Origin: Sabellastarte sp. h YS-2021
Lineage: Eukaryota > Annelida > Polychaeta > Sabellida > Sabellidae
Assembly: GCA_964017235.1 (NCBI GenBank)
Contig: OZ024940.1
Location: forward strand, 30,622,573-30,686,572
DNA: 64,000 nucleotides
Reading direction: 5' to 3'
Shown: positions 1 to 64,000 of the stretch, one piece after another
How positions within the stretch are numbered: position 1 is the first letter of the stretch
How the letters are laid out: each line of letters opens with the position of its first letter
Position numbers and translations under genes: made by a program
The notes under the pieces: model-generated
The model's database searches: none
Told to the model about the DNA's origin: nothing
Seen by the model: the letters and a program-made list of their open reading frames with translations, nothing else

Positions 1-119
1 TTCTTTAATTTTGCATATGTTTTAACAATAATTGCGGATATATTAGGCCCACTTGGAGTATTACATCTCTGAAAAGAAATTATTTCACCCATATATTGCT
101 GTAAAAATGGCCAAAAGTA

Positions 120-235
120 CATGTAAATTACACCAAACCAGTACCAAATGTTGGTCTATAATGCTGAAATTTGGCCAGAATATAAGGTGGCACATACTAA
201 ATCTGACTGAACCGGTTTTAAAATTACATCTGATA
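120..235 (+). repeat. Segment of the satellite 1 unit homologous to satellite 2 (example copy)
   Basis: The part from CATGT at 120 through CCAAATGTTGG (144) and AATTTGGCCAGA to TTACATCTGATATA aligns in the same orientation with the end of monomer C and the start of monomer D of satellite 2 (63793 onward, CCAAATATTG at 63814). Counting by hand over the best 44 positions, starting at 144 and at 63814, I find about 34 identities with one gap. Similarity is patchier on both sides. This suggests that both satellites derive from a common repeat. Confidence 0.7.
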
Positions 236-428
236 TAACAGTACTTATAGTTTGGCAATATTGGCTTCAGCTGGCCCCAAATTCGCTTCTGTGGGGCTGC
301 ATTAGGATATACTTAAATTTGGCAAAGTAAGACAAATTTAAGGCTGAAAACCATATTGTTTGCTAGAGCTGGCGCAACTAAATGAGATTCCACAAGAATA
401 TTCCTTAAGAAATACATAACTGGTCCAA

Positions 429-440
429 AATACATGTATT
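429..440. other. 12-bp perfect palindrome in each satellite 1 unit (example copy)
   Basis: AATACATGTATT equals its own reverse complement and is flanked by CC and GG. It recurs every 682 bp at the start of each phased unit. No variant of it was noticed while reading, although other sites vary between units. It could be a binding site for a dimeric protein or chance. I assign no function. Confidence 0.6.
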
Positions 441-754
441 GGAAGTGCAGGTATCGAGGGGGTGATCATATGGCACATCAGTCCAAAACCCCACTTAAAC
501 TTCATCAATCTGGCTCAGATTTTCACAGGAAACTCAGTTCATATCTGACATTGATATTGTATTGGCCTGACTTACTCAGGAAACCAATTAAAAATTTCAA
601 TTTTCCGGGGTTTGGGGCCAGGCTCAGCCCCCCTCAAATTAGGAAATATCAGGTATATCCTAATACAACCAATCTGAAGCTCTTCTTTAATTTTGCATAT
701 GTTTTAACAATAATTGAGGATATATTAGGCCCATTTGGAGCACTACATCTCTGA
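434..754 (+). other. Recurring 106-codon ATG open frame in the 682-bp unit (example); probably non-coding
   Basis: Most units contain an ATG frame of 106 codons, beginning MYWKCRYRGGDHM and ending at a TGA just after GCATCTC-like variants. I recognise no protein family, signal peptide or motif. It is disrupted by a two-base insertion in the 1116 unit, shifted in the 1800 and 32489 units, stopped early by TAG at 37546, extended to 124 codons where TGA became CGA at 18485, and cut by the array end at 54997. Because copies are nearly identical overall, an open frame in one ancestral unit would be inherited by almost all, so its persistence is weak evidence for coding. A following 61-codon frame starts only at TTG and is stopped at codon 4 in the many units with GCATTAAATC. 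Confidence 0.2.
605..638. other. GC-rich patch with hairpin potential in each satellite 1 unit (example copy)
   Basis: In this AT-rich unit one short stretch is strongly GC-rich. GGGGC at 614-618 can pair with GCCCC at 627-631 across an eight-base loop, and TTT at 611-613 with AAA at 636-638 beyond a four-base bulge. Several diagnostic variants of the satellite fall here (CCGGGG, CCTGGG, ACGGGG, GGGGATTGGGG, and an eight-C run near 1310). There are only two runs of four G on one strand, so a standard four-run G-quadruplex is not formed within a single unit. Confidence 0.5.
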
Positions 755-3162
755 AAATAAATTATTTCACCCATATATTGCTGTAAAAATGGCCAAAAAT
801 ACATGTAAATTACACCAAACCAGTACCAAATGTTGGTCTATAATGCTGAAATTTGGCCAGAATATAAGGTGGCACATACTAAATCTGACTGAACCGGTTT
901 TAAAATTACATCTGATATAACAGTACTTATAGTTTGGCAATATTGGCTTCAGCTGGCCCCAAATTCGCTTCTGTGGGGCTGCATTAAGATATACTTAAAT
1001 TTGGCAAAGTAAGACAAATTTAAGGCTGAAAACCATATTGTTTGCTAGAGATGGCGCCACTAAATGAGATTCCACAAGAATATTCCTTAAGAAATACATA
1101 ACTGGTCCAAAATACATGTATTGGAAGTGCAGGTATCGAGGGGGTGATCATATGGCACATCAGTCCAAAACCCCACTTAAACTTCATCAATCTGGCTCAG
1201 ATTTTCACAGGAAACTCAGTTCATATCTGACATTGATATTGTATTGGCTTGACTTACTCAGGAAACCAATTAAAATTTTCAATTTTCCGGGGTTTGGGGC
1301 CAGGCTCAGCCCCCCCCTCAAATTAGGAAATATCAGGTATATCCTAATACAACCAATCTGAAGCTCTTCTTTAATTTTGCATATGTTTTAACAATAATTG
1401 CGGATATATTAGGCCCACTTGGAGTATTACATCTCTGAAAAGAAATTATTTCACCCATATATTGCTGTAAAAATGGCCAAAAGTACATGTAAATTACACC
1501 AAACCAGTACCAAATGTTGGTCTATAATGCTGAAATTTGGCCAGAATATAAGGTGGCACATACTAAATCTGACTGAACCGGTTTTAAAATTACATCTGAT
1601 ATAACAGTACTTATAGTTTGGCAATATTGGCTTCAGCTGGCCCCAAATTCGCTTCTGTGGGGCTGCATTAGGATATACTTAAATTTGGCAAAGTAAGACA
1701 AATTTAAGGCTGAAAACCATATTGTTTGCTAGAGCTGGCGCAACTAAATGAGATTCCACAAGAATATTCCTTAAGAAATACATAACTGGTCCAAAATACA
1801 TGTATTGGAAGTGCAGGTATCGAGGGGTGATCATATGGCACATCAGTCCAAAACCCCACTTAAACTTCATCAATCTGGCTCAGATTTTCACAGGAAACTC
1901 AGTTCATATCTGACATTGATATTGTATTGGCTTGACTTACTCAGGAAACCAATTAAAAATTTCAATTTTCCTGGGTTTGGAGCCAGGCTCAGCCCCCCTC
2001 AAATTAGGAAATATCAGGTATATCCTAATACAACCAATCTGAAGCTCTTCTTTAATTTTGCATATGTTTTAACAATAATTGAGGATATATTAGGCCCATT
2101 TGGAGCACTACATCTCTGAAAATAAATTACTTCACCCATATATTGCTGTAAAAATGGCCAAAAATACATGTAAATTACACCAAACCAGTACCAAATGTTG
2201 GTCTATAATGCTGAAATTTGGCCAGAATATAAGGTGGCACATACTAAATCTGACTGAACCGGTTTTAAAATTACATCTGATATAACAGTACTTATAGTTT
2301 GGCAATATTGGCTTCAGCTGGCCCCAAATTCGCTTCTGTGGGGCTGCATTAGGATATACTTAAATTTGGCAAAGTAAGACAAATTTAAGGCTGAAAACCA
2401 TATTGTTTGCTAGAGCTGGCGCCACTAAATGAGATTCCACAAGAATATTCCTTAAGAAATACATAACTGGTCCAAAATACATGTATTGGAAGTGCAGGTA
2501 TCGAGGGGGTGATCATATGGCACATCAGTCCAAAACCCCACTTAAACTTCATCAATCTGGCTCAGATTTTCACAGGAAACTCGGTTCATATCTGACATTG
2601 ATATTGTATTGGCTTGACTTACTCAGGAAACCAATTAAAAATTTCAATTTTCCGGGGTTTGGGGCCAGGCTCAGCCCCCCTCAAATTAGGAAATATCAGG
2701 TATATCCTAATACAACCAATCTGAAGCTCTTCTTTAATTTTGCATATGTTTTAACAATAATTGAGGATATATTAGGCCCATTTGGAGCATTACATTTCTG
2801 AAAATAAATTATTTCACCCATATATTGCTGTAAAAATGGCCAAAAGTACATGTAAATTACACCAAACCAGTACCAAATGTTGGTCTATAATGCTGAAATT
2901 TGGCCAGAATATAAGGTGGCACATACTAAATCTGACTGAACCGGTTTTAAAATTACATCTGATATAACAGTACTTATAGTTTGGCAATATTGGCTTCAGC
3001 TGGCCCCAAATTCGCTTCTGTGGGGCTGCATTAGGATATACTTAAATTTGGCAAAGTAAGACAAATTTAAGGCTGAAAACCATATTGTTTGCTAGAGCTG
3101 GCGCAACTAAATGAGATTCCACAAGAATATTCCTTAAGAAATACATAACTGGTCCAAAATAC

Positions 3163-6100
3163 ATGTATTGGAAGTGCAGGTATCGAGGGGGTGATCATAT
3201 GGCACATCAGTCCAAAACCCCACTTAAACTTCATCAATCTGGCTCAGATTTTCACAGGAAACTCAGTTCATATCTGACATTGATATTGTATTGGCTTGAC
3301 TTACTCAGGAAACCAATTAAAAATTTCAATTTTCCTGGGTTTGGAGCCAGGCTCAGCCCCCCTCAAATTAGGAAATATCAGGTATATCCTAATACAACCA
3401 ATCTGAAACTCTTCTTTAATTTTGCATATGTTTTAACAATAATTGAGGATATATTAGGCCCATTTGGAGCACTACATCTCTGAAAATAAATTACTTCACC
3501 CATATATTGCTGTAAAAATGGCCAAAAATACATGTAAATTACACCAAACCAGTACCAAATGTTGGTCTATAATGCTGAAATTTGGCCAGAATATAAGGTG
3601 GCACATACTAAATCTGACTGAACCGGTTTTAAAATTACATCTGATATAACAGTACTTATAGTTTGGCAATATTGGCTTCAGCTGGCCCCAAATTCGCTTC
3701 TGTGGGGCTGCATTAAGATATACTTAAATTTGGCAAAGTAAGACAAATTTAAGGCTGAAAACCATATTGTTTGCTAGAGCTGGCGCCACTAAATGAGATT
3801 CCACAAGAATATTCCTTAAGAAATACATAACTGGTCCAAAATACATGTATTGGAAGTGCAGGTATCGAGGGGGTGATCATATGGCACATCAGTCCAAAAC
3901 CCCACTTAAACTTCATCAATCTGGCTCAGATTTTCACAGGAAACTCAGCTCATATCTGACATTGATATTGTATTGGCTTGACTTACTCAGGAAACCAATT
4001 AAAAATTTCAATTTTCCGGGGTTTGGGGCCAGGCTCAGCCCCCCTCAAATTAGGAAATATCAGGTATATCCTAATACAACCAATCTGAAGCTCTTCTTTA
4101 ATTTTGCATATGTTTTAACAATAATTGAGGATATATTAGGCCCATTTGGAGCATTACACCTCTGAAAATAAATTATTTCACCCATATATTGCTGTAAAAA
4201 TGGCCAAAAATACATGTAAATTACACCAAACCAGTACCAAATGTTGGTCTATAATGCTGAAATTTGGCCAGAATATAAGGTGGCACATACTAAATCTGAC
4301 TGAACCGGTTTTAAAATTACATCTGATATAACAGTACTTATAGTTTGGCAATATTGGCTTCAGCTGGCCCCAAATTCGCTTCTGTGGGGCTGCATTAAGA
4401 TATACTTAAATTTGGCGAAGTAAGATAAATTTAAGGCTGAAAACCATATTGTTTGCTAGAGCTGGCGCCACTAAATGAGATTCCACAAGAATATTCCTTA
4501 AGAAATACATAACTGGTCCAAAATACATGTATTGGAAGTGCAGGTATCGAGGGGGTGATCATATGGCACATCAGTCCAAAACCCCACTTAAACTTCATCA
4601 ATCTGGCTCAGATTTTCACAGGAAACTCAGTTCATATCTGACATTGATATTGTATTGGCTTGACTTACTCAGGAAACCAATTAAAAATTTCAATTTTCCT
4701 GGGTTTGGAGCCAGGCTCAGCCCCCCTCAAATTAGGAAATATCAGGTATATCCTAATACAACCAATCTGAAGTTCTTCTTTAATTTTGCATATGTTTTAA
4801 CAATAATTGAGGATATATTAGGCCCATTTGGAGCATTACATCTCTGAAAATAAATTACTTCACCCATATATTGCTGTAAAAATGGCCAAAAATACATGTA
4901 AATTACACCAAACCAGTACCAAATGTTGGTCTATAATGCTGAAATTTGGCCAGAATATAAGGTGGCACATACTAAATCTGACTGAACCGGTTTTAAAATT
5001 ACATCTGATATAACAGTACTTATAGTTTGGCAATATTGGCTTCAGCTGGCCCCAAATTCCCTTCTGTGGGGCTGCATTAAGATATACTTAAATTTGGCAA
5101 AGTAAGACAAATTTAAGGCTGAAAACCATATTGTTTGCTAGAGCTGGCGCCACTAAATGAGATTCCACAAGAATATTCCTTAAGAAATACATAACTGGTC
5201 CAAAATACATGTATTGGAAGTGCAGGTATCGAGGGGGTGATCATATGGCACATCAGTCCAAAACCCCACTTAAACTTCATCAATCTGGCTCAGATTTTCA
5301 CAGGAAACTCAGCTCATATCTGACATTGATATTGTATTGGCTTGACTTACTCAGGAAACCAATTAAAAAATTCAATTTTCCGGGGTTTGGGGCCAGGCTC
5401 AGCCCCCCTCAAATTAGGAAATATCAGGTATATCCTAATACAACCAATCTGAAGCTCTTCTTTAATTTTGCATATGTTTTAACAATAATTGAGGATATAT
5501 TAGGCCCATTTGGAGCATTACACCTCTGAAAATAAATTATTTCACCCATATATTGCTGTAAAAATGGCCAAAAATACATGTAAATTACACCAAACCAGTA
5601 CCAAATGTTGGTCTATAATGCTGAAATTTGGCCAGAATATAAGGTGGCACATACTAAATCTGACTGAACCGGTTTTAAAATTACATCTGATATAACAGTA
5701 CTTATAGTTTGGCAATATTGGCTTCAGCTGGCCCCAAATTCGCTTCTGTGGGGCTGCATTAAGATATACTTAAATTTTGCAAAGTAAGATAAATTTAAGG
5801 CTGAAAACCATATTGTTTGCTAGAGCTGGCGCCATTAAATGAGATTCCACAAGAATATTCCTTAAGAAATACATAACTGGTCCAAAATACATGTATTGGA
5901 AGTGCAGGTATCGAGGGGGTGATCATATGGCACATCAGTCCAAAACCCCACTTAAACTTCATCAATCTGGCTCAGATTTTCACAGGAAACTCAGTTCATA
6001 TCTGACATTGATATTGTATTGGCTTGACTTACTCAGGAAACCAATTAAAAATTTCAATTTTACGGGGTTTGGGGCCAGGCTCAGCCCCCCTCAAATTAGG

Positions 6101-6572
6101 AAATATCAGGTATATCCTAATACAACCAATCTGAAGCTCTTCTTTAATTTTGCATATGTTTTAACAATAATTGAGGATATATTAGGCCCATTTGGAGCAT
6201 TACACCTCTGAAAATAAATTATTTCACCCATATATTGCTGTAAAAATGGCCAAAAATACATGTAAATTACACCAAACCAGTACCAAATGTTGGTCTATAA
6301 TGCTGAAATTTGGCCAGAATATAAGGTGGCACATACTAAATCTGACTGAACCGGTTTTAAAATTACATCTGATATAACAGTACTTATAGTTTGGCAATAT
6401 TGGCTTCAGCTGGCCCCAAATTCGCTTCTGTGGGGCTGCATTAGGATATACTTAAATTTGGCAAAGTAAGACAAATTTAAGGCTGAAAACCATATTGTTT
6501 GCTAGAGCTGGCGCAACTAAATGAGATTCCACAAGAATATTCCTTAAGAAATACATAACTGGTCCAAAATAC
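3163..6572 (+). repeat. Satellite 1 five-unit block, copy 1 (3410 bp)
   Basis: Five units in the order CCTGGG, CCGGGG, CCTGGG, CCGGGG, ACGGGG. Rare changes mark individual units: GAAGTTCTTC near 4770, AATTCCCTTCTG near 5056-5066 and ATTAAAAAATTC near 5363-5372. Every one of these recurs exactly 3410 bp downstream in copy 2, which identifies the block as one copy of a recent tandem duplication. One difference seen is GAAACTC near 3405 against GAAGCTC in copy 2. Confidence 0.88.
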
Positions 6573-9500
6573 ATGTATTGGAAGTGCAGGTATCGAGGGG
6601 GTGATCATATGGCACATCAGTCCAAAACCCCACTTAAACTTCATCAATCTGGCTCAGATTTTCACAGGAAACTCAGTTCATATCTGACATTGATATTGTA
6701 TTGGCTTGACTTACTCAGGAAACCAATTAAAAATTTCAATTTTCCTGGGTTTGGAGCCAGGCTCAGCCCCCCTCAAATTAGGAAATATCAGGTATATCCT
6801 AATACAACCAATCTGAAGCTCTTCTTTAATTTTGCATATGTTTTAACAATAATTGAGGATATATTAGGCCCATTTGGAGCACTACATCTCTGAAAATAAA
6901 TTACTTCACCCATATATTGCTGTAAAAATGGCCAAAAATACATGTAAATTACACCAAACCAGTACCAAATGTTGGTCTATAATGCTGAAATTTGGCCAGA
7001 ATATAAGGTGGCACATACTAAATCTGACTGAACCGGTTTTAAAATTACATCTGATATAACAGTACTTATAGTTTGGCAATATTGGCTTCAGCTGGCCCCA
7101 AATTCGCTTCTGTGGGGCTGCATTAAGATATACTTAAATTTGGCAAAGTAAGACAAATTTAAGGCTGAAAACCATATTGTTTGCTAGAGCTGGCGCCACT
7201 AAATGAGATTCCACAAGAATATTCCTTAAGAAATACATAACTGGTCCAAAATACATGTATTGGAAGTGCAGGTATCGAGGGGGTGATCATATGGCACATC
7301 AGTCCAAAACCCCACTTAAACTTCATCAATCTGGCTCAGATTTTCACAGGAAACTCAGCTCATATCTGACATTGATATTGTATTGGCTTGACTTACTCAG
7401 GAAACCAATTAAAAATTTCAATTTTCCGGGGTTTGGGGCCAGGCTCAGCCCCCCTCAAATTAGGAAATATCAGGTATATCCTAATACAACCAATCTGAAG
7501 CTCTTCTTTAATTTTGCATATGTTTTAACAATAATTGAGGATATATTAGGCCCATTTGGAGCATTACACCTCTGAAAATAAATTATTTCACCCATATATT
7601 GCTGTAAAAATGGCCAAAAATACATGTAAATTACACCAAACCAGTACCAAATGTTGGTCTATAATGCTGAAATTTGGCCAGAATATAAGGTGGCACATAC
7701 TAAATCTGACTGAACCGGTTTTAAAATTACATCTGATATAACAGTACTTATAGTTTGGCAATATTGGCTTCAGCTGGCCCCAAATTCGCTTCTGTGGGGC
7801 TGCATTAAGATATACTTAAATTTGGCGAAGTAAGATAAATTTAAGGCTGAAAACCATATTGTTTGCTAGAGCTGGCGCCACTAAATGAGATTCCACAAGA
7901 ATATTCCTTAAGAAATACATAACTGGTCCAAAATACATGTATTGGAAGTGCAGGTATCGAGGGGGTGATCATATGGCACATCAGTCCAAAACCCCACTTA
8001 AACTTCATCAATCTGGCTCAGATTTTCACAGGAAACTCAGTTCATATCTGACATTGATATTGTATTGGCTTGACTTACTCAGGAAACCAATTAAAAATTT
8101 CAATTTTCCTGGGTTTGGAGCCAGGCTCAGCCCCCCTCAAATTAGGAAATATCAGGTATATCCTAATACAACCAATCTGAAGTTCTTCTTTAATTTTGCA
8201 TATGTTTTAACAATAATTGAGGATATATTAGGCCCATTTGGAGCATTACATCTCTGAAAATAAATTACTTCACCCATATATTGCTGTAAAAATGGCCAAA
8301 AATACATGTAAATTACACCAAACCAGTACCAAATGTTGGTCTATAATGCTGAAATTTGGCCAGAATATAAGGTGGCACATACTAAATCTGACTGAACCGG
8401 TTTTAAAATTACATCTGATATAACAGTACTTATAGTTTGGCAATATTGGCTTCAGCTGGCCCCAAATTCCCTTCTGTGGGGCTGCATTAAGATATACTTA
8501 AATTTGGCAAAGTAAGACAAATTTAAGGCTGAAAACCATATTGTTTGCTAGAGCTGGCGCCACTAAATGAGATTCCACAAGAATATTCCTTAAGAAATAC
8601 ATAACTGGTCCAAAATACATGTATTGGAAGTGCAGGTATCGAGGGGGTGATCATATGGCACATCAGTCCAAAACCCCACTTAAACTTCATCAATCTGGCT
8701 CAGATTTTCACAGGAAACTCAGCTCATATCTGACATTGATATTGTATTGGCTTGACTTACTCAGGAAACCAATTAAAAAATTCAATTTTCCGGGGTTTGG
8801 GGCCAGGCTCAGCCCCCCTCAAATTAGGAAATATCAGGTATATCCTAATACAACCAATCTGAAGCTCTTCTTTAATTTTGCATATGTTTTAACAATAATT
8901 GAGGATATATTAGGCCCATTTGGAGCATTACACCTCTGAAAATAAATTATTTCACCCATATATTGCTGTAAAAATGGCCAAAAATACATGTAAATTACAC
9001 CAAACCAGTACCAAATGTTGGTCTATAATGCTGAAATTTGGCCAGAATATAAGGTGGCACATACTAAATCTGACTGAACCGGTTTTAAAATTACATCTGA
9101 TATAACAGTACTTATAGTTTGGCAATATTGGCTTCAGCTGGCCCCAAATTCGCTTCTGTGGGGCTGCATTAAGATATACTTAAATTTTGCAAAGTAAGAT
9201 AAATTTAAGGCTGAAAACCATATTGTTTGCTAGAGCTGGCGCCATTAAATGAGATTCCACAAGAATATTCCTTAAGAAATACATAACTGGTCCAAAATAC
9301 ATGTATTGGAAGTGCAGGTATCGAGGGGGTGATCATATGGCACATCAGTCCAAAACCCCACTTAAACTTCATCAATCTGGCTCAGATTTTCACAGGAAAC
9401 TCAGTTCATATCTGACATTGATATTGTATTGGCTTGACTTACTCAGGAAACCAATTAAAAATTTCAATTTTACGGGGTTTGGGGCCAGGCTCAGCCCCCC

Positions 9501-14300: not shown

Positions 14301-14756
14301 CTAATACAACCAATCTGAAGCTCTTCTTTAATTTTGCATATGTTTTAACAATAATTGAGGATATATTAGGCCCATTTGGAGCACTACATCTCTGAAAATA
14401 AATTATTTCACCCATATATTGCTGTAAAAATGGCCAAAAGTACATGTAAATTACACCAAACCAGTACCAAATGTTGGTCTATAATGCTGAAATTTGGCCA
14501 GAATATAAGGTGGCACATACTAAATCTGACTGAACCGGTTTTAAAATTACATCTGATATAACAGTACTTATAGTTTGGCAATATTGGCTTCAGCTGGCCC
14601 CAAATTCGCTTCTGTGGGGCTGCATTAAGATATACTTAAATTTGGCAAAGTAAGACAAATTTAAGGCTGAAAACCATATTGTTTGCTAGAGCTGGCGCCA
14701 CTAAATGAGATTCCACAAGAATATTCCTTAAGAAATACATAACTGGTCCAAAATAC
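11347..14756 (+). repeat. Satellite 1 block with two-unit and three-unit recurrences
   Basis: The units at 11347 and 12711 (1364 bp apart) share two rare changes, CCTAATGCAACC (11578, 12942) and GCTGCAATTTGG (near 11760 and 13124). The units at 12029 and 14075 (2046 bp apart) share GGAGACC, and both are preceded by CCATAGTG (near 11948 and 13994). The unit at 13394 carries CAAAGCAGT near 13778, a marker seen again near 32193 and 36285. Confidence 0.7.
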
Positions 14757-51400: not shown

Positions 51401-53633
51401 TAGTTTGGCAATATTGGCTTCAGCTGGCCCCAAATTCGCTTCTGTGGGGCTGCATTAAGATATACTTAAATTTGGCAAAGTAAGACAAATTTAAGGCTGA
51501 AAACCATATTGTTTGCTAGAGCTGGCGCCACTAAATGAGATTCCACAAGAATATTCCTTAAGAAATACATAACTGGTCCAAAATACATGTATTGGAAGTG
51601 CAGGTATCGAGGGGGTGATCATATGGCACATCAGTCCAAAACCCCACTTAAACTTCATCAATCTGGCTCAGATTTTCACAGGAAACTCAGTTCATATCTG
51701 ACATTGATATTGTATTGGCTTGACTTACTCAGGAAACCAATTAAAAATTTCAATTTTCCGGGGTTTGGGGCCAGGCTCAGCCCCCCTCAAATTAGGAAAT
51801 ATCAGGTATATCCTAATACAACCAATCTGAAGCTCTTCTTTAATTTTGCATATGTTTTAACAATAATTGAGGATATATTAGGCCCATTTGGAGCATTAAA
51901 TCTCTGAAAAGAAATTATTTCACCCATATATTGCTGTAAAAATGGCCAAAAATACATGTAAATTACACCAAACCAGTACCAAATGTTGGTCTATAATGCT
52001 GAAATTTGGCCAGAATATAAGGTGGCACATACTAAATCTGACTGAACCGGTTTTAAAATTACATCTGATATAACAGTACTTATAGTTTGGCAATATTGGC
52101 TTCAGCTGGCCCCAAATTCGCTTCTGTGGGGCTGCATTAGGATATACTTAAATTTGGCAAAGTAAGACAAATTTAAGGCTGAAAACCATATTGTTTGCTA
52201 GAGCTGGCGCCACTAAATGAGATTCCACAAGAATATTCCTTAAGAAATACATAACTGGTCCAAAATACATGTATTGGAAGTGCAGGTATCGAGGGGGTGA
52301 TCATATGGCACATCAGTCCAAAACCCCACTTAAACTTCATCAATCTGGCTCAGATTTTCACAGGAAACTCAGTTCATATCTGACATTGATATTGTATTGG
52401 CTTGACTTACTCAGGAAACCAATTAAAAATTTCAATTTTCCGGGGTTTGGGGCCAGGCTCAGCCCCCCTCAAATTAGGAAATATCAGGTATATCCTAATA
52501 CAACCAATCTGAAGCTCTTCTTTAATTTTGCATATGTTTTAACAATAATTGAGGATATATTAGGCCCATTTGGAGCATTAAATCTCTGAAAAGAAATTAT
52601 TTCACCCATATATTGCTGTAAAAATGGCCAAAAATACATGTAAATTACACCAAACCAGTACCAAATGTTGGTCTATAATGCTGAAATTTGGCCAGAATAT
52701 AAGGTGGCACATACTAAATCTGACCGAACCGGTTTTAAAATTACATCTGATATAACAGTACTTATAGTTTGGCAATATTGGCTTCAGCTGGCCCCAAATT
52801 CGCTTCTGTGGGGCTGCATTAGGATATACTTAAATTTGGCAAAGTAAGACAAATTTAAGGCTGAAAACCATATTGTTTGCTAGAGCTGGCGCCACTAAAT
52901 GAGATTCCACAAGAATATTCCTTAAGAAATACATAACTGGTCCAAAATACATGTATTGGAAGTGCAGGTATCGAGGGGGTGATCATATGGCACATCAGTC
53001 CAAAACCCCACTTAAACTTCATCAATCTGGCTCAGATTTTCACAGGAAACTCAGTTCATATCTGACATTGATATTGTATTGGCTTGACTTACTCAGGAAA
53101 CCAATTAAAAATTTCAATTTTCCGGGGTTTGGGGCCAGGCTCAGCCCCCCTCAAATTAGGAAATATCATGTATATCCTAATACAACCAATCTGAAGCTCT
53201 TCTTTAATTTTGCATATGTTTTAACAATAACTGAGGATATATTAGGCCCATTTGGAGCACTACATCTCTGAAAAGAAATTACTTCACCCATATATTGCTG
53301 TAAAAATGGCCAAAAATACATGTAAATTACACCAAACCAGTACCAAATGTTGGTCTATAATGCTGAAAATTTGGCCAGAATATAAGGTGGCACATACTAA
53401 ATCTGACTGAACCGGTTTTAAAATTACATCTGATATAACAGTACTTATAGTTTGGCAATATTGGCTTCAGCTGGCCCCAAATTCGCTTCTGTGGGGCTGC
53501 ATTAGGATATACTTAAATTTGGCAAAGTAAGACAAATTTAAGGCTGGAAACCATATTGTTTGCTAGAGCTGGCGCCACTAAATGAGATTCCACAAGAATA
53601 TTCCTTAAGAAATACATAACTGGTCCAAAATAC
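45448..53633 (+). repeat. Satellite 1 four-unit higher-order repeat, three copies (2728-2729 bp each)
   Basis: The copies are 45448-48175, 48176-50904 and 50905-53633. In each, unit 1 carries GAAAAGAAATT with AAAAGTACATG. Units 2 and 3 end GCATTAAATC, with GACCGAACC in unit 3 (near 47266, 49994 and 52723). Unit 4 differs between copies: the first has TTGCTATAAAAATGG, while the second and third have AAATATCATG, AATAACTGAGG, an extra A in GCTGAAAATTTGG and GGCTGGAAACC. The extra A makes the second and third copies 2729 bp long. Confidence 0.82.
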
Positions 53634-55215
53634 ATGTATTGGAAGTGCAGGTATCGAGGGGGTGATCATATGGCACATCAGTCCAAAACCCCACTTAAAC
53701 TTCATCAATCTGGCTCAGATTTTCACAGGAAACTCAGTTCATATCTGACATTGATATTGTATTGGCTTGACTTACTCAGGAAACCAATTAAAAATTTCAA
53801 TTTTCCGGGGTTTGGGGCCAGGCTCAGCCCCCCTCAAATTAGGAAATATCAGGTATATCCTAATACAACCAATCTGAAGCTCTTCTTTAATTTTGCATAT
53901 GTTTTAACAATAATTGAGGATATATTAGGCCCATTTGGAGCATTACATCTCTGAAAATAAATTATTTCACCCATATATTGCTGTAAAAATGGCCAAAATA
54001 CATGTAAATTACACCAAACCAGTACCAAATGTTGGTCTATAATGCTGAAATTTGGCCAGAATATAAGGTGGCACATACTAAATCTGACTGAACCGGTTTT
54101 AAAATTACATCTGATATAACAGTACTTATAGTTTGGCAATATTGGCTTCAGCTGGCCCCAAATTCGCTTCTGTGGGGCTGCATTAAGATATACTTAAATT
54201 TGGCAAAGTAAGACAAATTTACGGCTGAAAACCATATTGTTTGCTAGAGCTGGCGCCACTAAATGAGATTCCACAAGAATATTCCTTAAGAAATACATAA
54301 CTGGTCCAAAATACATGTATTGGAAGTGCAGGTATCGAGGGGGTGATCATATGGCACATCAGTCCAAAACCCCACTTAAACTTCATCAATCTGGCTCAGA
54401 TTTTCACAGGAAACTCAGTTCATATCTGACATTGATATTGTATTGGCTTGACTTACTCAGGAAACCAATTAAAAATTTCAATTTTCCGGGGTTTGGGGCC
54501 AGGCTCAGCCCCCCTCAAATTAGGAAATATCAGGTATATCCTAATACAACCAATCTGAAGCTCTTCTTTAATTTTGCATATGTTTTAACAATAATTGAGG
54601 ATATATTAGGCCCATTTGGAGCATTACATCTCTGAAAAGAAATTATTTCACCCATATATTGCTGTAAAAATGGCCAAAAATACATGTAAATTACACCAAA
54701 CCAGTACCAAATGTTGGTCTATAATGCTGAAATTTGGCCAGAATATAAGGTGGCACATACTAAATCTGACTGAACCGGTTTTAAAATTACATCTGATATA
54801 ACAGTACTTATAGTTTGGCAATATTGGCTTCAGCTGGCCCCAAATTCGCTTCTGTGGGGCTGCATTAAGATATACTTAAATTTGGCAAAGTAAGACAAAT
54901 TTAAGGCTGAAAACCATATTGTTTGCTAGAGCTGGCGCCACTAAATGAGATTCCACAAGAATATTCCTTAAGAAATATATAACTGGTCCAAAATACATGT
55001 ATTGGAAGTGCAGGTATCGAGGGGGTGATCATATGGCACATCAGTCCAAACCCCCACTTAAACTTCATCAATCTGGCTCAGATTTTCACAGGAAACTCAG
55101 TTCATATCTGACATTGATATTGTATTGGCTTGACTTACTCAGGAAACCAATTAAAAATTTCAATTTTCCGGGGTTTGGGGCCAGGCTCAGCCCCCCTCAA
55201 ATTAGGAAATATCAG
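53634..55215 (+). repeat. Terminal units of satellite 1, last one truncated
   Basis: Two complete units (53634 and 54315) are followed by the first 219 bp of a third unit that stops at AAATATCAG. The 53634 unit lacks one A near 53996 and has TTTACGGCTG, like the unit at 44085. Near the end a few private changes appear: AAATATATAAC at 54975-54985 instead of AAATACATAAC, and CCAAACCCCCAC near 55046-55057 instead of CCAAAACCCCAC. The array edge is therefore only slightly more diverged than its interior. Confidence 0.85.
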
Positions 55216-55216
55216 T
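55214..55216. other. Junction between satellite 1 and satellite 2
   Basis: Satellite 1 runs in register up to AAATATCAG (ending at 55215) and satellite 2 begins in the middle of a D monomer with AGTGAATGACACC. The two bases AG at 55214-55215 fit both sides, so the overlap is 2 bp. No target-site duplication, transposon end or spacer is present. This is what end joining or illegitimate recombination between arrays would leave. An assembly misjoin would look the same. Confidence 0.9.
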
Positions 55217-55353
55217 GAATGACACCAATAAATAGGAAATAGCTTTTAGACCTACAGACTGGGTTAAACCCATGTCACATTGCTCTTTAGCCGCCAATAA
55301 AGGGGTCTGGCTACAATAAACCATACACCTGGGGTGACATTTTGGCAGCATAG
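55216..55353 (+). repeat. Partial D monomer at the junction
   Basis: This is the last 138 bp of a D monomer (TGAATGACACCAATAAATAGG through GGCAGCATAG). It lacks the first roughly 49 bp because the junction falls inside the monomer. It carries CCATACACCTGGGG, where other D copies have CCATATACC or CCACATACC. Confidence 0.9.
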
Positions 55354-56103
55354 CTAAGCCAAATATTGGGATGTAATGCTGCAATTTGGGCCAAACATTA
55401 AGTGGGTGACACTTATAAATATGGAACAGCTTTGGGACTTACATCGAGGTTTAAATCTCATGTAGGAAGATTCCACGACCTGAAATGAGCTATACTGTTT
55501 GCAGTAGCTCATATATACAGGGCGTCCCGTTCCCAAAATAACTAAGCCAAATATTGAGATATAATACTGCAATTTGGTACAAACACTAAGTAAAAAATAC
55601 TAATGCATATGGAATAGCTTTGAAACCTATAAAATGGGTTATACCATGTCACATTGCTCTGCGACCTGCAATGAAGTGGTATAGCTTCATAAAACCCACA
55701 TACCTAGTGCCCCATTTTGGCAGCATAACTAAATCAAATATTGGGATGTAATGCTGCAATTTGGGCCAAATGTTAAGGGAGTGACACTAATAAAAATAGA
55801 ACAGCTTTCAGACTTACATCTATAAAGGAAATCCTCAACGAAAGCTTTTACGACTGGGAATGAGCCACACTGGTGGCAGTAAACTAATATATACAGAGGT
55901 TCATGTTTCCACCATAACTAAGCCAAATATTGACCTAGAATACTGTAATTTGGTCCAGACACTAAGTAAATGACACCAATAAATAGGAAATAGCTTTGAG
56001 ACCTACAGACTGGGTTAAACCCATGTCACATTGCTCTTTAGCCGCCATAAAGGGGTCTGGCTGCAATAAACCACATACCTGGGGTGACATTTTGGCAGCA
56101 TAG

Positions 56104-56291
56104 CTAAGCCAAATATTGGGATGTAATACAGCAATTTGGGCCAAACATTAAGTGGGTGACACTAATAAATATGGAATAGCTTTGGGACTTACATCAAGCT
56201 TTAAATCTCGTGTAGGAAGATTCCACGACCTGAAATGAGCTATACTGTTTGCAGTAGCTCATGTATACAGGGGGTCCCGTTCCCAACATAA
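56104..56291 (+). repeat. Monomer type A of satellite 2 (representative, 188 bp)
   Basis: The anchor is followed by GGGATGTAATACAGC, then GGGCCAAACATTAAGTGGG, GACTTACATC, a GTAGGAAGATTCCACGACC segment and TGTTTGCAGTAGCTC, ending GTCCCGTTCCCAACATAA. The end of this type carries the CENP-B-box-like sequence. Monomers A and C share their first ~70 bp closely and align throughout, so they form one family. Confidence 0.92.
56275..56291 (-). promoter_or_regulatory. CENP-B-box-like 17-mer at the end of an A monomer
   Basis: The plus strand reads TCCCGTTCCCAACATAA; the minus strand is TTATGTTGGGAACGGGA. Against the mammalian CENP-B box consensus YTTCGTTGGAARCGGGA this matches 14 of 17 positions; the mismatches are positions 3, 4 and 10. 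In mammals the residues TTCG, A10 and CGGG matter for binding, so three of nine essential positions differ. It could be a divergent box for a related pogo-type protein, or coincidence. Confidence 0.35.
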
Positions 56292-56479
56292 CTAAGCCAA
56301 AATATTGAGATATAATACTGCAATTTGGTACAAACACTAAGTAAAAAATACTAATGCATATGGAATAGCTTTGAAACCTAAAAAATGGGTTATACCATGT
56401 CACATTGCTCTGCCACCTGCAATGAAGTGGTCTAGCTGCATAAAACCCATATACCTAGTGCCCCATTTTGGCAGCATAA
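56292..56479 (+). repeat. Monomer type B of satellite 2 (representative, 188 bp)
   Basis: The anchor is followed by GAGATATAATACTGC, TTGGTACAAACACTAAG and AAAAAATACTAATGCATATGG, then CATGTCACATTGCTCTGCC, ending CCCCATTTTGGCAGCATAA. A variant with ACTGCTATTTCATAC instead of ACTGCAATTTGGTAC occurs at 58921, 60799 and 63432. B and D share the CATGTCACATTGCTC block and the end of the monomer. Confidence 0.92.
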
Positions 56480-56668
56480 CTAAGCCAAATATTGGGATGT
56501 AATGCTGCAATTTGGGCCAAACATTAAGGGTGTGACACTACTAAAAATAGAACAGCTTTCAGACTTACATCTATAAAGGAAACTCTCGACACAAGCTTTT
56601 ATGACTGGGAATGAGCCACACTGGTTGCAGTAAACTAATGCATACAGGGGTTCATGTTTCCACCATAA
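56480..56668 (+). repeat. Monomer type C of satellite 2 (representative, 189 bp)
   Basis: The anchor is followed by GGGATGTAATGCTGC as in A, then by TTAAGGG, AATAGAACAGCTTTCAGAC, TTTTATGACTGGGAATGAGCC (written in part) and an end with GTTCATGTTTCCACC. Some copies have CTAAATC in place of CTAAGCC at the anchor (55729, 57231, 59109, 60987, 62864). A rarer C form with AATGAAAACAGAAC recurs at 57982, 59860 and 61738. Confidence 0.92.
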
Positions 56669-56855
56669 CTAAGCCAAATATTGACATAGAATACTGCAAT
56701 TTGGTCCAGACACTTAGTGAATGACACCAATAAATAGGAAATAGCTTTGAGACCTACAGACTGGGTTAAACTCATGTCACATTGCTCTCTAGCCGCCAAT
56801 AAAGGGGTCTTGCTACAATAAACCATATACCTGGGGTGACATTTTGGCAGCATAG
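56669..56855 (+). repeat. Monomer type D of satellite 2 (representative, 187 bp)
   Basis: The anchor is followed by ACATAGAATACTGC (usually ACCTAGAATACTG), TTGGTCCAGACACT and ACACCAATAAATAGGAAATAG, then CATGTCACATTGCTC and AATAAAGGGGTCT, ending TGGGGTGACATTTTGGCAGC. Of the four types, D and its junction with C align best with satellite 1. D copies are 186 or 187 bp, depending on CCGCCATAAAGG or CCGCCAATAAAGG. Confidence 0.92.
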
Positions 56856-58357
56856 CTAAGCCAAATATTGGGATGTAATGCTGCAATTTGGGCCAAACAT
56901 TAAGTGGGTGACACTTATAAATATGGAACAGCTTTGGGACTTACATCGAGGTTTAAATCTCATGTAGGAAGATTCCACGACCTGAAATGAGCTATACTGT
57001 TTGCAGTAGCTCATATATACAGGGCGTCCCGTTCCCAAAATAACTAAGCCAAATATTGAGATATAATACTGCAATTTGGTACAAACACTAAGTAAAAAAT
57101 ACTAATGCATATGGAATAGCTTTGAGACCTATAAAATGGGTTATACCATGTCACATTGCTCTGCCACCTGCAATGAAGTGGTATAGCTTCATAAAACCCA
57201 CATACCTAGTGCCCCATTTTGGCAGCATAACTAAATCAAATATTGGGATGTAATGCTGCAATTTGGGCCAAATGTTAAGGGAGTGACACTAATAAAAATA
57301 GAACAGCTTTCAGACTTACATCTATAAAGGAAATCCTCAACAAAAGCTTTTACGACTGGGAATGAGCCACACTGGTGGCAGTAAACTAATATATACAGAG
57401 GTTCATGTTTCCACCATAACTAAGCCAAATATTGACCTAGAATACTGTAATTTGGTCCAGACACTAAGTGAATGACACCAATAAATAGGAAATAGCTTTG
57501 AGACCTACAGACTGGGTTAAACCCATGTCACATTGCTCTTTAGCCGCCATAAAGGGGTCTGGCTGCAATAAACCACATACCTGGGGTGACATTTTGGCAG
57601 CATAGCTAAGCCAAATATTGGGATGTAATACTGCAATTTGGGCCAAACATTAAGTGGGTGACACTAATAAATATGGAATAGCTTTGGGACTTACATCAAG
57701 CTTTAAATCTCGTGTAGGAAGATTCCACGACCTCAAATGAGCTATACTGTTTGCAGTAGCTCATGTATACAGGGGGTCCCGTTCCCAACATAACTAAGCC
57801 AAAATATTGAGATATAATACTGCAATTTGGTACAAACACTAAGTAAAAAATACTAATGCATATGGAATAGCTTTGAGACCTATAAAATGGGTTATACCAT
57901 GTCACATTGCTCTGCCACCTGCAATGAAGTGGTATAGCTGCATAAAACCCACATACCTAGTGCCCCATTTTGGCAGCATAACTAAGCCAAATATTGGGAT
58001 GTAATGCTGCAATTTGGGCCAAATATTAAGGGAGTGACACTAATGAAAACAGAACAGCTTTCAGACTTACATCTATAAAGGAAACTCTCAACGCAAGCTT
58101 TTACGACTGGGAATGAGCCACACTGGTGGCAGTAAACTAATATATACAGGGGTTCATGTTTCCACCATAACTAAGCCAAATATTGACCTAGAATACTGCA
58201 ATTTGGTCCAGACACTAAGTAAATGACACCAATAAATAGGAAATAGCTTTTAGACCTACAGACTGGGTTAAACCCATGTCACATTGCTCTCTAGCCCCCA
58301 ATAAAGGGGTCTGGCTACAATAAACCATATACCTGGGGTGACATTTTGGCAGCATAG
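56856..58357 (+). repeat. Satellite 2 eight-monomer repeat ABCDABCD, copy 2 (1502 bp)
   Basis: Tetramers 56856-57605 and 57606-58357 (A 56856, B 57044, C 57231, D 57420, A 57606, B 57794, C 57982, D 58171). They match copy 1 base for base over long stretches at an offset of 1502 bp, with scattered differences such as CTGCCACC here against CTGCGACC in copy 1. From about 57231 the same monomers also match at +1878, so this copy is part of the 1878-bp repeat as well. Confidence 0.88.
57777..57793 (-). promoter_or_regulatory. CENP-B-box-like 17-mer, second copy
   Basis: Same 17 bases as at 56275-56291, 1502 bp downstream, at the A-to-B boundary. It matches 14 of 17 positions of the CENP-B box on the minus strand. 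Confidence 0.35.
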
Positions 58358-60235
58358 CTAAGCCAAATATTGGGATGTAATGCTGCAATTTGGGCCAAAC
58401 ATTAAGTGGGTGACACTTATAAATATGGAAGAGCTTTGGGACTTACATCAAGGTTTAAATCTCATGTAGGAAGATTCCACGACCTGAAATGAGCTATACT
58501 GTTTGCAGTACCTCATATATACAGGGCATCCCGTTAACAAAATAACTAAGCCAAATATTGAGATATAATACTGCAATTTGGTACAAACACTAAGTAAAAA
58601 ATACTAATGCATATGGAATAGCTTTGAGACCTATAAAATGGGTTATACCATGTCACATTGCTCTGCCACCTGCAATGAAGTGGTATAGCTGCATAAAACC
58701 CACATACCTAGTGCCCCATTTTGGCAGCATAACTAAGCCAAATATTGGGATGTAATGCTGCAATTTGGGCCAAACATTAAGTGGGTGACACTTATAAATA
58801 TGGAACAGCTTTGGGACTTACATCGAGGTTTAAATCTCATGTAGGAAGATTCCACGACCTGAAATGAGCTATACTGTTTGCAGTAGCTCATATATACTGG
58901 GGGTCCCGTTCCCACCATAACTAAGCCAAATATTGAGATATAATACTGCTATTTCATACAAACACTAAGTAAAAAATACTAATGCATATGGAATAGCTTT
59001 TGAGACCTATAAAATAGGTTATACCATGTCACATTGCTCTGCCACCTGCAATGAAGTGGTATAGCTTCATAAAACCCACATACCTAGTGCCCCATTTTGG
59101 CAGCATAACTAAATCAAATATTGGGATGTAATGCTGCAATTTGGGCCAAATGTTAAGGGAGTGACACTAATAAAAATAGAACAGCTTTCAGACTTACATC
59201 TATAAAGGAAATCCTCAACAAAAGCTTTTACGACTGGGAATGAGCCACACTGGTGGCAGTAAACTAATATATACAGAGGTTCATGTTTCCACCATAACTA
59301 AGCCAAATATTGACCTAGAATACTGTAATTTGGTCCAGACACTAAGTGAATGACACCAATAAATAGGAAATAGCTTTGAGACCTACAGACTGGGTTAAAC
59401 CCATGTCACATTGCTCTTTAGCCGCCATAAAGGGGTCTGGCTGCAATAAACCACATACCTGGGGTGACATTTTGGCAGCATAGCTAAGCCAAATATTGGG
59501 ATGTAATACTGCAATTTGGGCCAAACATTAAGTGGGTGACACTAATAAATATGGAATAGCTTTGGGACTTACATCAAGCTTTAAATCTCTTGTAGGAAGA
59601 TTCCACGACCTGAAATGAGCTATACTGTTTGCAGTAGCTCATGTATACAGGGGGTCCCGTTCCCAACATAACTAAGCCAAAATATTGAGATATAATACTG
59701 CAATTTGGTACAAACACTAAGTAAAAAATACTAATGCATATGGAATCGCTTTGAGACCTATAAAATGGGTTATACCATGTCACATTGCTCTGCCACCTGC
59801 AATGAAGTGGTATAGCTGCATAAAACCCACATACCTAGTGCCCCATTTTGGCAGCATAACTAAGCCAAATATTGGGATGTAATGCTGTAATTTGGGCCAA
59901 ATATTAAGGGAGTGACACTAATGAAAACAGAACAGCTTTCAGACTTACATCTATAAAGGAAACTCTCAACGCAAGCTTTTACGACTGGGAATGAGCCACA
60001 CTGGTGGCAGTAAACTAATATATACAGGGGTTCATGTTTCCACCATAACTAAGCCAAATATTGACCTAGAATACTGCAATTTGGTCCAGACACTAAGTGA
60101 ATGACACCAATAAATAGGAAATAGCTTTTAGACCTACAGACTGGGTTAAACCCATGTCACATTGCTCTCTAGCCCCCAATAAAGGGGTCTGGCTACAATA
60201 AACCATATACCTGGGGTGACATTTTGGCAGCATAG
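58358..60235 (+). repeat. Satellite 2 ten-monomer repeat ABABCD-ABCD, copy 1 (1878 bp)
   Basis: Hexamer 58358-59483 (A 58358, B 58546, A 58733, B 58921, C 59109, D 59298; 1126 bp) followed by tetramer 59484-60235 (A 59484, B 59672, C 59860, D 60049; 752 bp). The extra A-B pair appears where C would be expected: the B end with GGCAGCATAA leads into an A body, and the exchange falls in the first ~70 bp that A and C share. Private marks include CCCGTTAACAAAATAAC near 58531 and GGAATCGC near 59741. Confidence 0.9.
59655..59671 (-). promoter_or_regulatory. CENP-B-box-like 17-mer, third copy
   Basis: Identical 17-mer at the end of the A monomer that starts at 59484, 1878 bp after the preceding copy. 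The neighbouring A at 58733 has the weaker form TCCCGTTCCCACCATAA (58904-58920, 13 of 17). Confidence 0.35.
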
Positions 60236-62113
60236 CTAAGCCAAATATTGGGATGTAATGCTGCAATTTGGGCCAAACATTAAGTGGGTGACACTTATAA
60301 ATATGGAAGAGCTTTGGGACTTACATCAAGGTTTAAATCTCATGTAGGAAGATTCCACGACCTGAAATGAGCTATACTGTTTGCAGTACCTCATATATAC
60401 AGGGCATCCCGTTAACAAAATAACTAAGCCAAATATTGAGATATAATACTGCAATTTGGTACAAACACTAAGTAAAAAATACTAATGCATATGGAATAGC
60501 TTTGAGACCTATAAAATGGGTTATACCATGTCACATTGCTCTGCCACCTGCAATGAAGTGGTATAGCTGCATAAAACCCACATACCTAGTGCCCCATTTT
60601 GGCAGCATAACTAAGCCAAATATTGGGATGTAATGCTGCAATTTGGGCCAAACATTAAGTGGGTGACACTTATAAATATGGAACAGCTTTGGGACTTACA
60701 TCGAGGTTTAAATCTCATGTAGGAAGATTCCACGACCTGAAATGAGCTATACTGTTTGCAGTAGCTCATATATACTGGGGGTCCCGTTCCCACCATAACT
60801 AAGCCAAATATTGAGATATAATACTGCTATTTCATACAAACACTAAGTAAAAAATACTAATGCATATGGAATAGCTTTTGAGACCTATAAAATAGGTTAT
60901 ACCATGTCACATTGCTCTGCCACCTGCAATGAAGTGGTATAGCTTCATAAAACCCACATACCTAGTGCCCCATTTTGGCAGCATAACTAAATCAAATATT
61001 GGGATGTAATGCTGCAATTTGGGCCAAATGTTAAGGGAGTGACACTAATAAAAATAGAACAGCTTTCAGACTTACATCTATAAAGGAAATCCTCAACAAA
61101 AGCTTTTACGACTGGGAATGAGCCACACTGGTGGCAGTAAACTAATATATACAGAGGTTCATGTTTCCACCATAACTAAGCCAAATATTGACCTAGAATA
61201 CTGTAATTTGGTCCAGACACTAAGTGAATGACACCAATAAATAGGAAATAGCTTTGAGACCTACAGACTGGGTTAAACCCATGTCACATTGCTCTTTAGC
61301 CGCCATAAAGGGGTCTGGCTGCAATAAACCACATACCTGGGGTGACATTTTGGCAGCATAGCTAAGCCAAATATTGGGATGTAATACTGCAATTTGGGCC
61401 AAACATTAAGTGGGTGACACTAATAAATATGGAATAGCTTTGGGACTTACATCAAGCTTTAAATCTCTTGTAGGAAGATTCCACGACCTGAAATGAGCTA
61501 TACTGTTTGCAGTAGCTCATGTATACAGGGGGTCCCGTTCCCAACATAACTAAGCCAAAATATTGAGATATAATACTGCAATTTGGTACAAACACTAAGT
61601 AAAAAATACTAATGCATATGGAATCGCTTTGAGACCTATAAAATGGGTTATACCATGTCACATTGCTCTGCCACCTGCAATGAAGTGGTATAGCTGCATA
61701 AAACCCACATACCTAGTGCCCCATTTTGGCAGCATAACTAAGCCAAATATTGGGATGTAATGCTGTAATTTGGGCCAAATATTAAGGGAGTGACACTAAT
61801 GAAAACAGAACAGCTTTCAGACTTACATCTATAAAGGAAACTCTCAACGCAAGCTTTTACGACTGGGAATGAGCCACACTGGTGGCAGTAAACTAATATA
61901 TACAGGGGTTCATGTTTCCACCATAACTAAGCCAAATATTGACCTAGAATACTGCAATTTGGTCCAGACACTAAGTGAATGACACCAATAAATAGGAAAT
62001 AGCTTTTAGACCTACAGACTGGGTTAAACCCATGTCACATTGCTCTCTAGCCGCCAATAAAGGGGTCTGGCTACAATAAACCATATACCTGGGGTGACAT
62101 TTTGGCAGCATAG
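60236..62113 (+). repeat. Satellite 2 ten-monomer repeat ABABCD-ABCD, copy 2 (1878 bp)
   Basis: Hexamer 60236-61361 (A 60236, B 60424, A 60611, B 60799, C 60987, D 61176) followed by tetramer 61362-62113 (A 61362, B 61550, C 61738, D 61927). It repeats copy 1 at exactly +1878, including the private marks CCCGTTAACAAAATAAC and GGAATCGC, so the duplication is recent. Confidence 0.9.
61533..61549 (-). promoter_or_regulatory. CENP-B-box-like 17-mer, fourth copy
   Basis: Identical 17-mer at the end of the A monomer that starts at 61362, again 1878 bp after the preceding copy. Weaker 13-of-17 forms lie at 60782-60798 and 63415-63431. Confidence 0.35.
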
Positions 62114-63994
62114 CTAAGCCAAATATTGGGATGTAATGCTGCAATTTGGGCCAAACATTAAGTGGGTGACACTTATAAATATGGAAGAGCTTTGGGACTT
62201 ACATCAAGGTTTAAATCTCATGTAGGAAGATTCCACGACCTGAAATGAGCTATACTGTTTGCAGTACCTCATATATACAGGGCATCCCGTTCCCCAAATA
62301 ACTAAGCCAAATATTGAGATATAATACTGCAATTTGGTACAAACACTAAGTAAAAAATACTAATGCATATGGAATAGCTTTGAGACCTATAAAATGGGTT
62401 ATACCATGTCACATTGCTCTGCCACCTGCAATGAAGTGGTATAGCTTCATAAAACCCACATACCTAGTGCCCCATTTTGGCAGCATAACTAAATCAAATA
62501 TTGGGATGTAATGCTGCAATTTGGGCCAAACATTAAGTGGGTGACACTTATAAATATGAAACAGCTTTGGGACTTACATCGAGGTTTAAATCTCATGTAG
62601 GAAGATTCCACGACCTGAAATGAGCTATACTGTTTGCAGTAGCTCATATATACTGGGGGTCCCGTTCCCATCATAATTAAGCCAAATATTGAGATATAAT
62701 ACTGCAATTTGGTACAAACACTAAGTAAAAAATACTAATGCATATGGAATAGCTTTGAGACCTATAAAATGGGTTATACCATGTCACATTGCTCTGCCAC
62801 CTGCAATGAAGTGGTATAGCTGCATAAAACCCACATACCTAGTGCCCCATTTTGGCAGCATAACTAAATCAAATATTGGGATGTAATGCTGCAATTTGGG
62901 CCAAACGTTAAGGGAGTGACACTAATAAAAATAGAATAGCTTTCAGACTTACATCTATAAAGGAAATCCTCAACGCAAGCTTTTACGACTGGGAATGAGC
63001 CACACTGGTGGCAGTAAACTAATATATACAGAGGTTCATGTTTCCACCATAACTAAGCCAAATATTGACCTAGAATACTGCAATTTGGTCCAGACACTAA
63101 GTGAATGAAACCAATAAATAGGAAATAGCTTTTAGACCTACATACTGGGTTAAACCCATGTCACATTGCTCTCTAGCCGCCAATAAAGGGGTCTGGCTAC
63201 AATAAACCATATACCTGGGGTGACATTTTGGCAGCATAGCTAAGCCAAATATTGGGATGTAATGCTGCAATTTGGGCCAAACATTAAGTGGGTGACACTT
63301 ATAAATATGGAACAGCTTTGGGACTTACATCGCGGTTTAAATCTCATGTAGGAAGATTCCACGACCTGAAATGAGCTATACTGCATGTTTGCAGTAGCTC
63401 ATATATACTAGGGGTCCCGTTCCCACCATAACTAAGCCAAATATTGAGATATAATACTGCTATTTCATACAAACACTAAGTAAAAAATACTAATGCATAT
63501 GGAATAGCTTTTGAGACCTATAAAATAGGTTATACCATGTCACATTGCTCTGCTACCTGCAATGGAGTGGTATAGCTGCATAAAACCCATATACCTAGTG
63601 CCCCATTTTGGCAGCATAACTAAGCCAAATATTGGGATGTAATGCTGCAATTTGGGCCTAACGTTAAGGGAGTGACACTAATAAAAATAGAACAGCTTTC
63701 AGACTTACATCTATAAAGGAAATCCTCAACGCAAGCTTTTACGACTGGGAATGAGCCACACTGGTGGCAGTAAACTAATATATACAGAGGTTCATGTTTC
63801 CACCATAACTAAGCCAAATATTGACCTAGAATACTGCAATTTGGTCCAGACACTAAGTGAATGACACCAATAAATAGGAAATAGCTTTGAGACCTACAGA
63901 CTGGGTTAAACCCATGTCACATTGCTCTTTAGCCGCCATAAAGGGGTCTGGCTGCAATAAACCACATACCTGGGGTGACATTTTGGCAGCATAG
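62114..63994 (+). repeat. Satellite 2 ten-monomer repeat ABABCD-ABCD, copy 3 (1881 bp, more diverged)
   Basis: Hexamer 62114-63239 (A 62114, B 62302, A 62489, B 62677, C 62864, D 63053) followed by tetramer 63240-63994 (A 63240, B 63432, C 63620, D 63809). It has the same order as the two preceding copies but lacks their private marks. The A at 62489 begins with CTAAATC, otherwise a C feature. The A at 63240 has a four-base insertion (CTGCATGTTTGC near 63381-63392), giving a 192-bp monomer. The next A starts at 63995 and is cut by the window edge. Confidence 0.85.
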
Positions 63995-64000
63995 CTAAGC

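Follow-up and report, generated by a model that had tools for sequence, protein, structure and literature searches.

Two adjoining satellites of a sabellid annelid and their probable descent from one monomer family

A stretch of 64,000 nucleotides from the annelid Sabellastarte sp. h YS-2021 (assembly GCA_964017235.1, contig OZ024940.1, positions 30,622,573 to 30,686,572 of the forward strand), called the window below, is occupied by two satellite arrays lying side by side. A 682-bp satellite fills window 1-55215 (+), with 80 full copies and a partial one that stops at unit position 652, and a 188-bp satellite, with monomer types ordered B-C-A-D, fills window 55216-64000 (+). Ordinary repeat finders would call these two satellites unrelated, yet they adjoin, appear to share ancestry and are joined apparently in homologous register. 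The initial annotation had proposed that the long and the short satellite are branches of one family, and the homology of a core segment, described below, strongly supports such a common ancestry. It is probable that one ancestral monomer of ~188 bp gave rise to both satellites, the 682-bp unit being a rearranged, partly inverted and decayed mosaic of monomer pieces. The origins of new satellite families are mostly inferred after the fact; here, the splitting of one monomer family in two would have left testable marks, namely a mosaic unit, an inverted piece and the register of a junction.

A homologous core in the two satellites

The core of the homology, designated U1, lies at positions 143-233 of the first copy (+), is present in every copy and corresponds to monomer positions 5-95. 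A search with a profile hidden Markov model (HMM) using nhmmer, over 1002 target sequences, aligned unit 144-233 with monomer positions 6-95 on the same strand with 27.2 bits (E 8e-7), while the top score among 1000 shuffles was 7.1 bits. The segment of about 100 bp that had initially been placed at 120-235, in the same orientation as the 188-bp satellite, is therefore genuinely homologous, although its significant stretch is slightly shorter (~90 bp, 144-233). A hand count of 34 identities out of 44 in the best part is in line with the 38 of 46 identical columns found by BLAST at unit 144-187. The counterpart at window 63793 had been named the C-to-D region; in the present naming of the types it falls at the D-to-B monomer boundary.

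The local alignment with shuffled controls that the initial annotation had suggested leads to the same result. The Smith-Waterman scores of the 682-bp consensus against the A, B, C and D consensuses are 189, 198, 207 and 219, respectively, with the best alignments starting from unit 143, and for none of the four types was the core score attained in 1000 dinucleotide shuffles. The largest shuffle scores were 187 for A, which is narrow against 189, 183 for B, and 172 for both C and D. In the 188-bp array, 45 monomer starts delimit 44 blocks, one of which measures 375 bp as a result of a missed start and holds a hybrid monomer. The monomer profiles were built without this block and without the incomplete pieces at the ends; when the 375-bp block alone was compared with the unit, the core score was reached by 1 of 1000 shuffles.

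The homologous part of the monomer is also the half that is best kept between the monomer types. Conservation between A/B and C/D amounts to 66-77% in the first 100 monomer columns and to ~47-53% in the remainder. The columns that distinguish these two pairs are mixed in U1, with 5 of C/D kind, 1 of A/B kind and 2 others in the core, and 7 of A/B kind, 3 of C/D kind and 5 others in the other half. On the basis of this mixture, U1 looks like an outgroup to both A/B and C/D.

Monomer pieces outside the core

The rest of the unit was analysed with a custom circular profile HMM of the monomers. The direct monomer possibly continues, more weakly, through unit 234-345 (+), as far as the beginning of the following monomer. 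The posterior of this continuation is mostly 0.8-0.9, and unit 241-346, from which the weak plus-strand signal outside the core mainly comes, reaches p=0.020 by profile; shuffles attained the plus-strand signal as a whole in 11 of 400 and in 29 of 900 cases, and Markov sequences in 7 of 300. In a first test of forward extension anchored on the core, only type B among the four types exceeded all 60 shuffles; a second test gave p 0.02-0.03 for the best single type. Over the four types, the same extension gave p 0.085-0.09 with loose gaps and 0.60 with strict gaps, and the backward extension was nonsignificant (p 0.25-0.63).

An inverted monomer piece, designated Uinv and comprising the end of one monomer and monomer positions 1 to ~48, is found at unit 34-125 (-), where its best part is 34-70. 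It agrees with type D in 49 of 72 columns. The minus-strand log-odds outside the core is 4.64. Dinucleotide shuffles attained this value in none of 400 and in 1 of 900 trials, second-order Markov sequences in 2 of 300 and base shuffles in none of 300; profiles with permuted columns yielded at most 1.19 in 60 trials on this strand. The signal at unit 34-70 was equalled by none of 150 shuffles of that piece, whereas unit 71-125 is weaker and gives p=0.020 on the minus strand and p=0.027 on the plus strand. Inverted Smith-Waterman alignment outside the core gives p 0.002-0.02 on the minus strand (3000 shuffles, four gap schemes), and a minus-strand match of the AB profile at unit 41-110 (7.9 bits) was exceeded by 4 of 2000 shuffles. 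Two of the four Smith-Waterman schemes extended the inverted match from unit 110 back to 462, through 462-632, and the other two did not.

Two additional direct pieces are visible with a profile made from the unit's own direct monomer (unit 138-331) only, and not with the 188-bp profile. The first, U2, is a degenerate monomer piece that spans the arbitrary unit border at 633-715 (unit 633-682 and 1-33, +); the second, U3, is a second direct copy of the monomer's latter half at unit 352-440 (+) and matches unit 256-329. U1 is matched in 55 of 86 columns by U2 and in 50 of 82 by U3. Their combined log-odds of 6.70 was reached by none of 1000 dinucleotide shuffles and none of 600 Markov sequences, the largest value being 5.78, and permuted own-monomer profiles gave at most 3.72 in 100 trials. 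Support for Uinv, U2 and U3 is thus at p of about 0.001-0.01. A profile search for further degenerate monomers, suggested at the outset, has in this way brought out second segments that seem to exist (Uinv, U2 and U3), with the exception of the 192 bp at unit 441-632, a part without support or assigned monomer piece whose monomer origin may be masked by decay. The four-type profile gave no support for unit 346-664 on either strand (p 0.81, 0.87).

The junction of the arrays

The arrays meet at window 55206-55225 (+): the 682-bp side ends with unit position 652, the next base corresponds to position 50 in a monomer of type B, and AG is common to both sides. On the 682-bp side, the repeats do not decay as the junction is approached, the last copy having 3 mismatches in 652 positions. 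Unit 652 lies within U2, and when U1 and U2 are aligned its partner is unit 186. Unit 186 corresponds in turn to B position 49 by pairwise alignment, or to profile position 48 (posterior 0.76) or 49 (0.17). Provided that U2 is read in direct orientation, the join is therefore within 1 bp of homologous register, for which the chance is estimated at ~3 in 188 under random placement. This configuration, observed once, fits an array switch in which an exchange took place between equivalent positions of related monomers, by crossover, by conversion or through a microhomology join; such an exchange would be the mechanism of the join.

Origin of the 682-bp unit

The 188-bp monomer form is presumably the ancestral one. 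In a first branch, this monomer would have formed a dimer of A/B-like and C/D-like halves and then the tetramer B-C-A-D higher-order repeat. In a second branch, the new 682-bp unit would have come from a rearranged block in which one or more pieces were inverted and others truncated or duplicated; this unit would have drifted from the 188-bp form before its amplification by unequal exchange into a highly uniform array. Unequal exchange and amplification would thus operate on monomer blocks, and the array join seems to keep the monomer register. Both arrays may be (peri)centromeric.

Several results weigh against such a mosaic of monomer pieces. Many tests were made on a single 682-bp consensus. 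Direct Smith-Waterman alignment of the unit outside the core with tandem monomers scores like shuffles (p 0.37-0.76, four gap schemes), and the inverted alignment, when assessed over both strands, gives only p 0.008-0.045, varying with gap costs. The orientation of the pieces is also disputed. A direct match to the A-type box, the conserved 31-bp motif discussed in the next section, overlaps the inverted 34-70 at unit 26-56 (score 75; plus-strand p=0.012, or 0.028 when ten comparisons are taken into account), and the orientation is blurred because this box is itself nearly a dyad. The A-D profile provides no plus-strand support for U2 (p 0.95, or 0.96 with U1 added), and its posterior at ~673-33 favours an inverted reading (0.55-0.8). 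A profile of U1 only scores U2 on the minus strand too, though higher on the plus strand; its minus-strand signal was reached by none of 200 shuffles at unit 600-33 and gives p=0.007 at 621-33. The U1-U2 self-match has p 0.005-0.035 in two gap schemes and is not the top match in a third. An inverted self-similarity between unit 243-370 and ~57-187 (p 0.01-0.02 in two schemes) misfits the proposed layout, and no profile support was obtained at unit 440-620 (p 0.07-0.43, four tests) or 440-600 (p 0.79, 0.79). Concerning the junction, the posterior of the U2 register is 0.58 and a single junction was observed; in addition, the divergence between U2 and B at the join is too high for ordinary homologous recombination today.

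Alternatively, the satellites could be unrelated except for a captured segment of ~90 bp, either a short mobile element or a stray monomer, inserted in the ancestor of the 682-bp unit before its amplification. The 90-bp core alone is beyond doubt, the clearly homologous stretch has the same limits as the conserved monomer half, and direct Smith-Waterman alignment leaves the rest of the unit at shuffle level. Such a capture is nevertheless unlikely in view of the inverted piece, U2 and U3 outside the core, of the weak collinear extension to 345 (p=0.020) and of the in-register junction inside U2.

It had initially been suggested that the unit could have grown from about four monomers of 170 bp in tandem, later diverged past recognition. 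A length of 682 bp does represent 3.6 monomers, several monomer-related segments are present and the box-like match at 26-56 is direct. No further direct monomers were found, however, at a spacing of about 170-188 bp: one of the supported segments is inverted, the direct ones lack this spacing, U2, U1 and U3 differ in monomer phase, and outside the core the direct comparison with A-D gives no signal by Smith-Waterman and a weak one by profile HMM. This origin is accordingly very improbable. Convergence, by which AT-rich satellites sharing nucleosome-friendly words would match by chance, can be practically disregarded: both arrays are indeed AT-rich (GC 36-40%) and shuffles yield long weak alignments, but the core scores are unreached by shuffles and the scores of the other pieces rarely or never reached. 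A rearranged mosaic of pieces from one monomer family is consequently preferred.

The 31-bp box

The best-conserved part of the core is a 31-bp box of the form CCAAAT-N19-ATTTGG, located at unit 144-174 (+) and matching monomer positions 6-36; a sample in a type C monomer is found at window 55359-55389 (+). Its arms, CCAAAT and ATTTGG, constitute an inverted pair separated by 19 bases, and occur exactly at 78 places in the 682-bp array and at 33 in the 188-bp array. Unit and monomer are identical there at 25-26 of 31 positions without gaps, compared with 22 for the best ungapped 31-mer in 200 shuffles. The box is conserved above the rest of the core for types A (p 0.006) and B (p 0.038), and shows no significant extra conservation for C and D (p 0.086, 0.15).

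A functional constraint on the core was considered and is unsupported by polymorphism within the types, despite the conservation of the first monomer half between them. Polymorphic sites within monomer types are not rarer in the core (28/368) than elsewhere (36/352; p=0.24), nor are they significantly rarer in the core of the 682-bp unit (4/91, against 56/591; p=0.16). The box could be a putative binding site of a dimeric centromere or transposase-like protein, kept while the rest decays, with breaks or exchange in its vicinity allowing arrays to switch in register; this possibility is rather doubtful. If true, one protein-DNA pair at the box would both maintain function and generate new satellite families. 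The junction of the arrays is 13 bp beyond the box equivalent, and in U2 just the last 11 box bases are aligned, 9 of them identical to U1.

Comparison with known satellites

By description rather than by sequence, the closest known case would be that of TmSat1 (225 bp) and TmSat2 (704 bp) of the flour beetle Tribolium madens, both reported to derive from one element of ~110 bp (PMC13081366). The TmSat2 unit is described as composed of degenerate subunits in both orientations, 49.5-92.9% alike, and an earlier "extraneous" segment of 408 bp proved on re-analysis to be made of subunits; the TmSat1 and TmSat2 arrays adjoin, with a sharp chimeric junction (TRANS_2) of two truncated related subunits (PMC13081366). 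As in that account, a short and a long satellite share here a homologous subunit, and the long unit appears to hold several degenerate subunits, some of them inverted, albeit with moderate significance and conflicts of orientation. A sharp junction of two truncated related subunits is likewise seen, on the basis of one junction and of a U2 register with a posterior of 0.58. The two cases differ in that TmSat2 is described as made of subunits throughout, whereas 192 bp of the 682-bp unit are without an assigned one, and in the length of the element (188 bp here, ~110 bp there) and of the units. Array-level inversions (macro-dyads) are reported in T. madens; within this window, the 81 units and 45 monomer starts share one orientation. 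The present arrays may therefore be regarded as a new instance, with lengths of 682 and 188 bp, of an architecture already known, whose repetition with other satellite lengths suggests that it may be a general route.

Other satellites present more partial likenesses. The very divergent satellites of Meloidogyne (32-64%) share a short conserved box, and their monomer transitions take place at boxes (PMC3694981). Similarly, the switch span of the hybrid D/C monomer described below includes the 31-bp box; Box 1 of Meloidogyne, however, resembles the CENP-B box, which the 31-bp box does not, and the families are mixed there in higher-order repeats but form separate blocks here (PMC3694981). The manatee satellite TMAsat, similar in length, has a 684-687-bp unit whose two halves are related but diverged (55.8%), and its AT content is 54.5% (PMC8421680). 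It was rejected as a relative, since AT is ~63% here and both published primers are without a match at up to 4 substitutions; in contrast to the 682/188 pair, no short partner satellite is described in the text examined (PMC8421680). In the kiwifruit centromere, 188- and 189-bp monomers occur together in the repeat unit of one chromosome, along with a 152-bp monomer, of which none was seen here (PMC9909506). This case was compared by lengths alone, and the figure 682 is absent from the portion of its text that was available. A "682 bp" found for the cane toad was discarded, as it is the length given for 3' untranslated regions in the text available.

In general outline, and not by sequence comparison, the 188-bp satellite also recalls the primate alpha satellite, which is made of nucleosome-sized monomers arranged in higher-order repeats with hybrid monomers; monomers of nucleosomal size, a higher-order repeat and a hybrid monomer are all present here. 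A CENP-B box (NTTCGNNNNANNCGGGN) was rejected, because no site with 0-1 mismatch exists anywhere in the window, unlike in alpha satellite. Two mismatches are found at 82 sites, which fall at two positions of the 682-bp unit, 79 at the first and 3 at the second. These 82 sites exceed the 50 expected from shuffles because one unit position recurs.

Other searches

No RNA family was detected in window 53000-58000 up to E 0.5. The predicted secondary structure is not notable for one 682-bp copy (z -1.79, 1 of 20 shuffles as good) or for one 751-bp repeat (z -1.41, 2 of 20 as good). A degenerate 19-base monomer pattern matched 3 loci in IMG/VR, once in each, which is estimated to be about chance level, and a 21-base pattern of the unit matched nothing in IMG/VR or in GTDB genomes. 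One 682-bp unit compared with plasmids in distant mode gave no match.

Organization of the arrays

The 682-bp array is young and well homogenised. All 81 copies are head-to-tail in a single orientation, the spacing is exactly 682 in 72 of 80 cases, and the average full copy departs from the consensus at 4.26 positions. Divergence between copies is ~1% at all 15 copy distances listed, and exact multi-unit repeats extend over 3139 bp at lag 2729 and 3035 bp at lag 3410. This uniformity and these exact repeats of up to 3139 bp are consistent with ongoing unequal exchange. The 81 copies represent 38 haplotypes, and the common variants among the 80 full copies concentrate in three unit clusters (58-117, 305-378 and 538-616). 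Inside the unit, a short direct repeat links 105-125 and 418-438 (first copy), with AAAATACATGTA; it is identical at 18 of 21 positions and has p=0.030 in one gap scheme.

In the 188-bp array, all 45 monomer starts have one orientation. The four types measure 187-189 bp and recur, although diverged, as a fixed set, so that one B-C-A-D set makes a higher-order repeat of 751 bp, a sample of which lies at window 59298-60048 (+). Identity is 95-98% within types and 58-77% between them. The resemblance is 77% between A and B, 74% between C and D and 58-64% across these pairs; on the basis of this pairing, a dimer seems to have doubled. The hybrid monomer is located at window 62489-62676 (+), where it breaks the regular order of the higher-order repeat; its beginning is of type D and its remainder of type C, the change of type falling somewhere from monomer position 6 to 43, an interval that covers the 31-bp box. 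Finally, extra C-A pairs make irregular ten-monomer blocks of 1878 bp (window 58358-60985), which constitute a second higher-order layer.

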